In this document: one piece after another, positions 4,045 through 5,779 of the stretch
Numbering within the stretch: position 1 is the first letter of the stretch
How the letters are laid out: the number at the start of each line of letters is the position of its first letter
DNA from: Deltaproteobacteria bacterium
GTDB lineage: Bacteria; Desulfobacterota; GWC2-55-46
Assembly (NCBI GenBank): GCA_016182705.1
Contig: JACPGA010000183.1
Location: 1-5,779, forward strand
Direction: 5' to 3'
DNA: 5,779 nucleotides
Notes under the pieces: model-generated
Databases searched by the model: none
What the model saw: only the letters and a program-made list of their open reading frames with translations
What the model was told of the DNA's origin: nothing
Translations under genes and position numbers: made by a program

Positions 4045-4067
4045 AATTGGCTTGACAAAAAGCCGCT
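4036..4067 (+). repeat. Inverted repeat across the HIT stop codon
   Basis: AGCGGCT (4036–4042) is a perfect inverted match to AGCCGCT (4061–4067) with an 18-nt loop. In RNA it would form a 7-bp stem spanning the HIT stop codon and could mark the operon end. No U-tract follows, so it is not a standard intrinsic terminator. A further AGCCGCT copy lies at 4083–4089. The repeat also flanks the -35 box at 4052. Confidence 0.4.
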
Positions 4068-4080
4068 CTTGTACTACTCT
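4052..4080 (+). promoter_or_regulatory. Sigma70-like promoter of the ZTP-riboswitch leader
   Basis: A consensus -35 TTGACA (4052–4057) is followed after 17 nt by TACTCT (4075–4080), a weaker -10 matching TATAAT at three of six positions including the first two and the last. Transcription would begin near 4086–4090, about 25 nt before the aptamer P1. The site begins 7 nt after the HIT stop, so the riboswitch RNA is a separate unit from the upstream operon, although read-through could also feed it. Confidence 0.6.
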
Positions 4081-4111
4081 ATAGCCGCTTGAAATAGACC
4101 GAACTTGGTCA

Positions 4112-4192
4112 GACACCCGTAACTGACGGAACGAAGGTGGACACCACCGGGGAGCGGGGTCTTTGAATATTGTACAGCCGACCGTCTGGGCA
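4112..4192 (+). ncRNA. ZTP (ZMP/ZTP-sensing, pfl-motif) riboswitch aptamer
   Basis: ZTP riboswitches bind the purine intermediate ZMP (AICAR monophosphate) or ZTP, which accumulates when 10-formyl-tetrahydrofolate runs short, and usually turn gene expression on. P1 is GACaCCCG (4112–4119) with CGGGGTC (4155–4161), 7 bp with one bulged A. The conserved internal-loop strand AACTGACGGAA is at 4121–4131. P2 is GGTGG (4136–4140) with CCACC (4144–4148), followed by the hallmark GGGGAG (4149–4154). P3 is GCC (4177–4179) with GGC (4189–4191). The hallmark CCGTCTGGGCA (4182–4192) ends the aptamer. The pseudoknot GACGG (4125–4129) with CCGTC (4182–4186) is intact; compared with the usual GGCGG/CCGCC as I recall it, both strands changed together. 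A 15-nt linker joins the two halves. A small 5' hairpin, GACCG/TGGTC, precedes it at 4097–4110. Confidence 0.92.
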
Positions 4193-4240
4193 GAAAAAGC
4201 TTGGCACAAGCCATGCTATTTCATGCTCAGGCGGTTTTTT
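4182..4240 (+). terminator. Intrinsic terminator forming the expression platform of the ZTP riboswitch
   Basis: CCGTCTGGGCA (4182–4192) pairs along all 11 positions with TGCTCAGGCGG (4224–4234), with two G·U wobbles, and is followed directly by six T (4235–4240). The 31-nt loop holds a small GCTTG/CAAGC hairpin (4199–4203 with 4207–4211). The 5' arm is exactly the pseudoknot and P3 segment of the aptamer, so ligand-bound aptamer and terminator exclude each other. ZTP/ZMP binding should therefore allow read-through (an ON switch), as described for known ZTP riboswitches. Confidence 0.88.
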
Positions 4241-4302
4241 AATGTCCGCTTTAAGGCCTCTCGGGCCATCCAGGCCGGGAAAGCCGCCAGAGACTAAAAA
4301 GT

Positions 4303-4331
4303 TTGACAAAATACGGGAAATCTGTTTTAGT
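4303..4331 (+). promoter_or_regulatory. Second sigma70-like promoter, directly upstream of icd
   Basis: A consensus TTGACA (4303–4308) is separated by 17 nt from TTTAGT (4326–4331), a four-of-six match to TATAAT. The predicted start is near 4338, giving a leader of about 65 nt before icd. This promoter lies downstream of the riboswitch terminator, so it would give icd transcription that bypasses ZTP control. Like the first promoter it has CTAAAA a few bases before the -35 and AAA after it. Confidence 0.6.
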
Positions 4332-4351
4332 CATTGCCTCAAAACAGCCCG
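4314..4351 (+). repeat. Inverted repeat overlapping the icd -10 region
   Basis: CTGTTTT (4322–4328) and AAAACAG (4341–4347) are perfect inverted arms around a 12-nt centre. An outer pair CGGG (4314–4317) and CCCG (4348–4351) extends it after a 4-nt bulge. The left arm covers the -10 hexamer. As DNA this could be an operator for a dimeric repressor; as RNA from the upstream promoter it would be an 11-bp hairpin without a U-tract. Which applies cannot be decided here. Confidence 0.5.
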
Positions 4352-4403
4352 GAACAGCTTCAAAAATTTACCTGACCCGTTAATAAACCCAGTGGAGGAA
4401 CGT

Positions 4404-5779
4404 ATGTCCATGAAGATCATTTATACGGCTATAGATGAAGCACCGGCGCTCGCGACTTACTCTTTACTCCCCATCGTCAAGGCTTTCACCAAGGCTGCGG
4501 GCATCGAGGTCGAGACGAGGGACATTTCTCTGGCGGGAAGGATAATCGCCAACTTCCCGGAAAACCTCACCCCTGAGCAGAAGATACCGGACGAGCTCAC
4601 GGCTCTCGGAGAGCTTGCCAAGACCCCGGAAGCCAACATAATAAAGCTGCCGAACATCAGCGCGTCCATACCGCAGCTGAAAGCAGCCATAAAGGAATTG
4701 CAGGAAAAGGGCTACAAGGTCCCTGATTACCCGGAGGCGCCCGCCAGCGACGCTGAAAAGGAAATAAAGGCCAGGTACGGCAAGGTTTTAGGCAGCGCCG
4801 TCAACCCGGTCCTGCGCGAAGGCAACTCAGACCGCAGGGCGGCCGTTTCGGTCAAGAACTATGCCAAGAAGAACCCGCACAAGATGGGCGCGTGGAGCGC
4901 TGATTCCAAGACCAACGTCGCGCACATGTCCGCCGGAGATTTCTACGGCTCGGAAAAGTCCGTGACCGTGGACAAGGCAGGAAACGTTAAAATAGAATTC
5001 GTCGGCCAGGACGGCAAGACGACCGTACTCAAGGAAAAGACCGCTCTTAAGGCGCAAGAAGTCATCGACTCCGCGGTTATGAGCAGGAATGCCCTCAGGA
5101 AGTTTTACGCCGAGCAGATAGATGACGCAAAGAAGCAGGGCGTGCTCTTCTCGTTGCACCTGAAAGGCACTATGATGAAGGTCTCGGACCCCATCATGTT
5201 CGGACACGCTGTCGAAGTGTTCTACAAGGACGTATTCGAAAAGCACGCCGCCACCATCAAGGAACTCGGCGTTGATGTCAATAACGGACTCGGCGACCTT
5301 TACGCCAAGATAGCCAAGCTGCCTGAGGCCAAGAGGGCCGAGATAGAGGCTGACATAAAGGCCGTCTACAACAACCTCCCCGAGCTCGCGATGGTGAACT
5401 CGGACAAGGGCATCACAAACCTCCACGTGCCGTCAGATGTCATCATCGACGCTTCCATGCCTGCCATGATACGCGACTCAGGCAAAATGTGGGGCCCGGA
5501 CGGCAAGCTCCATGACACCAAGGCGACCATACCCGACAGGTGCTACGCGGGCGTATACGACGTCGTCATAGAAGACTGCAAGAAGAACGGCGCCTTCGAC
5601 CCGAGGACTATGGGAACCGTCCCCAACGTCGGCCTCATGGCGCAGAAGGCTGAAGAGTACGGCTCACACGACAAGACCTTCAAGGCCCCCGGAAACGGCA
5701 CCATAAGGGTCGTCGACGAAGCCGGAAAGGTACTGCTCGAGCAGAAAGTTGAAGAGGGCGATATCTTCCGCGCCTGCCA
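4404..5779 (+). CDS. icd: Monomeric NADP-dependent isocitrate dehydrogenase, 3'-truncated by the window edge
   Basis: The enzyme oxidatively decarboxylates isocitrate to 2-oxoglutarate with NADP+ in the TCA cycle, supplying NADPH and the carbon skeleton of glutamate. The first 458 codons are present, of about 740 in the family; the frame is open at the window end. The monomeric type is shown by [20 protein letters not shown] at the start, [17 protein letters not shown] (about 130–146), [13 protein letters not shown] (Lys254), [15 protein letters not shown] (Asp349) and [10 protein letters not shown] (Tyr419). These positions fall one residue before the isocitrate/metal ligands I recall for the Azotobacter vinelandii enzyme (Ser132, Arg145, Lys255, Asp350, Tyr420). 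The later metal and NADP residues lie beyond the window. ATG 4404 is chosen because GGAGG at 4394–4398 sits 5 nt before it; ATG 4410 is an alternative. It is preceded by its own promoter and, further up, by a ZTP riboswitch. Confidence 0.96.

Follow-up and report, generated by a model that had tools for sequence, protein, structure and literature searches.

A ZTP riboswitch with an overlapping terminator ahead of the monomeric isocitrate dehydrogenase gene in a deltaproteobacterial contig and its class relatives

The present study analyzes a ZTP riboswitch lying ahead of icd, the gene for a monomeric NADP-dependent isocitrate dehydrogenase (IDH), in the genome of a Deltaproteobacteria bacterium (GTDB phylum Desulfobacterota). 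The window, i.e. the whole stretch of DNA analyzed, is the entire contig C309 (JACPGA010000183.1, 5779 bases) of genome G000, which is 61% complete; letters with numbers are our own handles for genomes (G), contigs (C), loci (L) and families (f). The switch-icd arrangement is present in the window, and in the class to which the genome belongs 34 of 44 testable icd genes have a same-strand ZTP site no more than about 520 bases upstream. From its sequence, the aptamer with its overlapping terminator probably gates read-through into icd, and into genes resembling those of ATP-citrate lyase (ACL) that follow it, when ZMP or ZTP (5-aminoimidazole-4-carboxamide riboside mono- or triphosphate) builds up. 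The features of the window concerned are listed below.

4052-4080, + strand: predicted promoter A (TTGACA 4052-4057, 17-base spacer, TACTCT 4075-4080), from sequence
4109-4198, + strand: ZMP/ZTP riboswitch aptamer (Rfam RF01750, model 1-86 complete, 58.1 bits, E 6.8e-8)
4180-4240, + strand: intrinsic terminator, T-run 4235-4240, with the aptamer 3′ strand as 5′ arm (4180-4192) and 4224-4236 as 3′ arm
4303-4331, + strand: predicted promoter B (TTGACA 4303-4308, 17-base spacer ending in TGT, TTTAGT 4326-4331), between terminator and icd
4394-4399, + strand: ribosome-binding site of icd (GGAGGA), from sequence
4404-5779, + strand: 5′ part of icd, start ATG at 4404, cut by the contig end (PF03971, 824.5 bits)

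The covariance-model check of the aptamer, proposed in the initial annotation, gave a result well above threshold (58.1 bits against a gathering score of 39), and RF01750 was the sole Rfam match in the window at E≤1. The pseudoknot pairs GACGG (4125-4129) with CCGUC (4182-4186), which differs from the Rfam consensus GGCGG/CCGCC by a change on both sides. The 3′ strand of the aptamer, GACCGUCUGGGCA (4180-4192), also pairs with 4224-4236 over 13 positions, G-U pairs included, and the hairpin at 4178-4241 folds at −36.6 kcal/mol (z −8.0 versus 200 shuffles). A simple hairpin scan returned only the short inner hairpin at 4199-4211 because its loops were limited to 8 bases. An expression platform competing with the aptamer is thus present, the terminator 5′ arm overlapping the aptamer 3′ strand, and as the two structures are mutually exclusive an ON-switch layout is predicted. 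Such terminator-overlap ON-switch logic is described for the ZTP riboswitch in PMC2864571 (Weinberg 2010) and PMC7484762 (Hua 2020). The downstream gene is identified by residues 1-458 of its product, which score 824.5 bits with PF03971 (cut-off 25) and 839.4 bits with TIGR00178 (cut-off 950), the latter below the cut-off because the gene is cut by the contig end; full-length icd products of class relatives score 1263.6-1369.2 bits with PF03971. Together, the Rfam match, the folded hairpin, the PF03971 match and the lack of a clear gene between bear out the initial annotation of a ZTP element and terminator ahead of a same-strand icd, and its coordinates of 4052-4420 were right, 4052 being the first base of the promoter-like −35 box; the second promoter-like site, at 4303-4331, is absent from that annotation. 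Directly 5′ of the aptamer is a perfect small hairpin, GACCGAACTTGGTC, at 4097-4110; by a strict test similar 5′ hairpins, with mostly different letters, occur in 6 of 34 icd loci including the window.

To follow the pairing in relatives, 30 genomes of the family, 48 of the order and 63 of the class were scanned for RF01750 and PF03971; the order, class and phylum Rfam searches used stricter filters, with up to 72, 58 and 10 candidates scored per genome. The class yielded icd in 52 of 63 genomes, of which 44 were testable, having the 5′ end and enough upstream sequence on the contig. Excluded before this count were five genomes in which the icd 5′ end was missing (G002, G007, G023, G026, G053) and three with fewer than 300 bases upstream (G033, G041, G048), as were further icd pieces in G000, G012, G040 and G053. 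By family, switches per testable icd were 22/22 in f1, 1/1 in f2, 4/6 in f3, 2/3 in f4, 1/1 in f12 and 4/6 in f13, with 0/1 each in f5, f6, f9, f10 and f11. The pairing, whose fate in relatives the initial annotation had left as a check, is therefore kept in the class and without exception in the family of the source genome (22 of 22). Two of the switch-less loci hold remnants. In G057 (L243 / L279) a promoter-like site and the opening portion of the aptamer run directly into the icd leader, with neither terminator nor promoter B, which is a deletion or an assembly error. In G061 (L285) terminator and promoter B are kept, the helix-P2 arm of the aptamer is missing and there is no Rfam match; this leader may also be an assembly error. 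The icd frame of G027 (L050) holds several stops (two TGA and three TAA), possibly through assembly frameshifts.

Patterns of substitution in the icd-linked aptamers are consistent with maintenance of the structure. Helices P1, P2 and P3 and the pseudoknot between internal loop and P3 loop could be mapped on 31 of the 34 (alignment A1, which leaves out G010, G035 and G055 with their long inserts), and the inner pairs hold. For eight of the nine outer-helix pairs there are one or more sequences with both bases changed, the pseudoknot is constant in all five pairs, and the covariation score was 0.130 versus 0.097 when shuffled, with 0 of 500 shuffles as high. In 33 of 34 icd loci the aptamer strand can form a terminator stem of 7 or more pairs ahead of a T-run. 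Stems of this kind occur at 25 of 30 rnf, 18 of 19 ser, 5 of 5 antiporter, 2 of 3 pnt and 6 of 7 other sites of the class, a count that excludes 4 of 102 sites (three in which the motif was absent and one truncated by the contig end); after shuffling of the 3′-arm region the rate was 18 to 30%, and about 25% for the icd loci.

The genes beyond icd indicate what else the switch may serve. Sequence continues past icd in 25 of the 34 switch-icd loci and an ACL-like small-subunit gene comes next in 23 of these; in G010 it lies about 1.1 kb after icd, and in G054 and G056 unrelated genes follow. In the source genome, contig C303 carries an icd 3′ end and then, in the same orientation and after gaps of 78 and 36 bases, ACL-like genes encoding 435 and 903 amino acids. 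The 435-residue protein has ATP-grasp and citrate-binding domains (PF08442 and PF16114). The 903-residue protein has CoA-binding and succinyl-CoA-ligase-like domains without a hit to the citrate-synthase domain PF00285, which is precomputed in 15 of 120 relatives listed for the large subunit, and its structure model is too weak for use (pLDDT, the predicted local distance difference test, 51.8). The closest Protein Data Bank entry for the small subunit of G020 was citryl-CoA synthetase (6hxq_B, 5e-36), followed by ACL, and that for the large subunit of G003 was 6hxq_A; the downstream pair is here called ACL-like. The genes behind the switch in G059 are a dimeric NADP-IDH (TIGR00127, NF006156), non-homologous to icd, and the ACL-like genes. 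In G043 the switch stands ahead of the ACL-like genes, and icd is found at another place without a switch. Genes upstream of the switch differ among families, f3 and f13 included. These arrangements, with those of G054 and G056, point to the module, and not to neighborhood alone, as the target.

The class holds 102 ZTP matches, 98 of them over the cut-off, and the first genes after them were 34 icd, 30 rnfC, 20 class-V aminotransferase, 5 CPA2 antiporter, 5 pntA, 4 sucC and one each of an ACL-like gene alone, dimeric IDH and kup, with one off the contig; target families were assigned by clustering and scans of representatives rather than of every protein. At two of the five pntA-linked sites a pyrophosphatase comes first. 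Where the stretch is long enough, serA and hisZ come after the class-V aminotransferase, and purA is the fourth gene of this operon in 3 of 3 extended stretches (by Pfam in G018, by eye in G028 and G029). Behind sucCD in G059 come genes for three subunits of a 2-oxoacid:acceptor oxidoreductase that its neighbors mark as kor-like; the alpha subunit passes the general model NF006412 and not the 2-oxoglutarate-specific NF007206. Several single loci may be recorded as well. The second ZTP site of the source genome (L001 1501-1587, 67.1 bits) fronts rnfC (L263 5996-7333, − strand), and a class-V aminotransferase gene (PF00266; L020 1777-2922, + strand) stands at the head of a serA operon. Other ZTP sites precede a Kup potassium transporter (L162 1698-3086, + strand) and CPA2 cation/proton antiporters (L173 2440-3861, − strand). 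A transhydrogenase beta gene (L192 371-2380, − strand; 669 amino acids) after a weak site of 33.5 bits has its C-terminal part tandemly doubled, with identical 12-residue words 192 residues apart.

ZTP has been proposed as an alarmone for shortage of 10-formyl-folate, and purine and folate genes are the known setting of its riboswitch. In the mechanism we propose, the transcript from promoter A would stop near 4240 without ligand, leaving icd to promoter B alone, and with ligand, under shortage of 10-formyl-tetrahydrofolate, read-through from promoter A would add icd expression. The ZTP sites of the class (icd-ACL, sucCD with the kor-like oxidoreductase, Rnf, transhydrogenase and aminotransferase-serA-hisZ-purA) would then jointly supply carbon, reductant, serine and purines, the alarmone raising a supply line towards one-carbon units beyond the final folate steps. 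The serine and purine genes fit the classic ZTP role, and IDH, ACL, kor, Rnf and pnt would suit the provision of carbon and reductant for serine and one-carbon units.

Several observations weigh against the proposed control of icd and its module, or against parts of it. Ten of the 44 testable class icd genes had no detectable switch, and rescanning these ten loci and G048 at E≤5 gave no ZTP match. Outside the class the pairing was not seen in a phylum-level sample of 395 genomes, an even draw from a larger group, with the 10 best Rfam candidates scored per genome; the sample held ZTP sites in 25 and icd in 55 genomes, 11 and 41 of these outside the class, and the sole non-class genome with both (G391) had them on different contigs. 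Among 80 named icd loci, scanned with Rfam (15 loci) or with a two-motif pattern that recovers 100 of 102 known class ZTP sites (79 loci), only L062 was positive, and this locus (Deltaproteobacteria NC_groundwater_1646) was taken as class genome G019. The icd of the source genome is in two pieces on two contigs, and the linkage to ACL-like genes therefore leans on relatives. Within the aptamer alignment, further pair types were no better than shuffled (24 vs 23.6), and a +1 slide of the register gave more double-changed cells (50 vs 38) and a near score (0.118), while pairing 48% of cells versus 83% for the true register. The four outermost P1 pairs fail to form in 15-20 of 31 sequences, as do two of the five P3 pairs in 19 and 27 of 31. 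Promoter B would leave icd partly independent of the switch. Finally, in an enzyme survey of 21 chosen class genomes at least 90% complete, citrate synthase was found in 18, and therefore the IDH/ACL step could run in either direction.

This last point bears on purpose rather than on the switch itself. The same switch could serve an oxidative purpose, providing NADPH and 2-oxoglutarate or glutamate for serine and purine synthesis instead of a reductive, CO2-fixing route, and we regard this as a serious possibility, somewhat short of an even chance. It is consistent with the frequency of citrate synthase and with consumption of glutamate or aspartate by the serA and purA routes, and with pnt in the regulon, which could make NADPH. 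Set against it is the pairing of the switch with ACL-like genes, with Rnf and, in G059, with sucCD and a 2-oxoacid:acceptor oxidoreductase, which are needs of a reductive tricarboxylic acid (TCA) route. The 2-oxoacid oxidoreductase domain POR_N was present in 21 of 21 genomes and fits either direction because the family also covers pyruvate enzymes and gives a match in E. coli. Fhs was found in 9 of 21 genomes (fragmented in G003 and G054), and serine is thus the likely main source of one-carbon units only in some genomes; taken together, the three counts make both cycle directions possible. Two further arguments were considered and rejected: loss of citrate synthase as proof of a reductive direction fails on the 18 genomes that have it, and a lack of Fhs could account for the unusual regulon only in part.

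It could also be that the switch hardly matters, with promoter B driving icd and the promoter A RNA being a leader that is mostly terminated, or a relic of some earlier arrangement. In 27 of 34 icd loci an exact TTGACA stands in the gap from terminator to icd, compared with 3 of 30 rnf, 0 of 20 ser, 2 of 5 antiporter (kef) and 0 of 5 pnt gaps, the rnf gaps being shorter than those of icd and not length-matched and the antiporter and pnt samples small. In this gap scan a start at offset 300 was assigned by hand to frames opening before offset 200. The spacer of promoter B is conserved at 0.82 bit per position versus 0.21 further downstream, and similar sites occur in two of the ten switch-less icd loci (G037 and G046). 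However, the aptamer pairing is kept, the overlapping terminator is nearly universal among icd loci, and 7 of 34 loci lack the promoter B −35 box and 3 more (G027, G028, G029) a recognizable −10, yet all retain the switch. Moreover the switch also fronts ACL-like genes without icd, and another IDH. A predominance of promoter B is for these reasons unlikely. Its conservation nevertheless indicates that icd is probably not under ZTP control alone, and most likely the switch adds ligand-gated transcription on top of basal icd expression. Promoter A has counterparts across the class: of 101 ZTP sites with at least 75 nt upstream, 99 have TTGAC no further than 90 nt ahead of the aptamer. A strict promoter scan reported neither promoter, missing B because its −10 lacks A at position 2. 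In the window, 4309-4325 and 4332-4345, the spacer and following letters (GGaAAATyTG, TGCCTCAAAA), are conserved across families. This conservation perhaps goes beyond plain promoter need; a regulator site could explain it, which is a guess.

Alternatively, switch and icd may be linked by descent only, having stayed together since the neighborhood was not rearranged. A HIT-like gene lies upstream of the switch in several order genomes (by eye), as in the window, and a quick icd tree, which includes three partial icd rows, needs 7 label changes versus 9.1 when shuffled, with 21 of 500 shuffles as low. These patterns would agree with simple inheritance, but the genes upstream differ in f3 and f13, IDH is swapped in G059, icd is apart from the ACL-like genes in G043, HIT-icd neighborhoods without a switch exist (G044, G046) and the aptamer pairs co-vary, all of which make this account quite improbable. 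The idea, raised in the initial annotation, that the true target is a folate or purine gene further along the operon with icd as passenger recalls the sister operon with purA in fourth place, but no such gene was met downstream of icd, where the ACL-like gene prevails, G054 and G056 have other genes and longer stretches past the ACL-like genes hold pilus- or secretion-like or other genes (by eye), and it is scarcely credible.

On the + strand of the window are a partial ispH, rpsA, sppA, an IHF-beta-like gene, the HIT/adenylyltransferase-like gene and then the 5′ part of icd; the HIT gene ends at 4044, and no other convincing gene lies between it and icd.

A broader reading, which we hold tentatively and below even odds, is that in this class a central-carbon regulon is controlled by the ZTP riboswitch, such that shortage of formyl-folate raises the whole route to serine and one-carbon units. 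Operons for IDH-ACL, SucCD-KOR, Rnf, transhydrogenase and serine-purine synthesis, each with a switch in some members, would make up this regulon, and the route would start from CO2 or TCA intermediates. If true, it would be the first case of a carbon-fixation module of reductive-TCA type under a riboswitch, icd would be a two-promoter gate with a basal and a ZTP-gated promoter, and in some bacteria one-carbon status would serve as a cue for central carbon and redox metabolism. This offers a testable link of folate stress to carbon fixation in uncultured lineages, with natural variants on offer in the IDH swap, the decayed leaders and the second promoter.

Comparison with known systems places the element as a known riboswitch class with a new regulon or target set, and it is rated as such rather than as a new kind of riboswitch. 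Score, conserved core letters, pseudoknot and a terminator over the 3′ part are those of the ZMP/ZTP riboswitch (pfl motif, RF01750). Unlike the canonical ZTP operon, which begins with purH, fhs, folD, glyA or pfl, the first gene here is icd, and, by clustering and scans of representatives, none of those five came first at any of the 101 class ZTP sites with downstream sequence. In contrast to RF01750 riboswitches elsewhere, most icd copies here (27 of 34) add a promoter-like site between terminator and gene. ZTP sites of the same phylum outside the class belong to the same Rfam family but differ in their targets: in the 6 of 11 genomes where these could be named they were fhs (L229 by Pfam; L232 by a near-identical start), glyA/SHMT (serine hydroxymethyltransferase; L231, L237) and class-V aminotransferase (L233, with serA next by eye; L238), and never icd, ACL, Rnf or kor. 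The initial annotation knew of no described ZTP riboswitch linked with an isocitrate dehydrogenase, and this holds for the literature searched, a judgement based on that search and on portions of PMC2864571, PMC7266159, PMC10117056 and PMC7484762, with the defining paper (Kim 2015, including its gene table) and the Weinberg 2010 supplements outside its coverage. Titles and opening parts of abstracts in the autotroph literature searched likewise gave no riboswitch control of citrate-lyase modules. We know of no riboswitch control of the icd/ACL modules of reductive-TCA bacteria. Such modules occur in bacteria of the Chlorobium and Nitrospira type, and it is these that the present genes resemble in joining a monomeric NADP-IDH to a two-subunit ACL-like enzyme.

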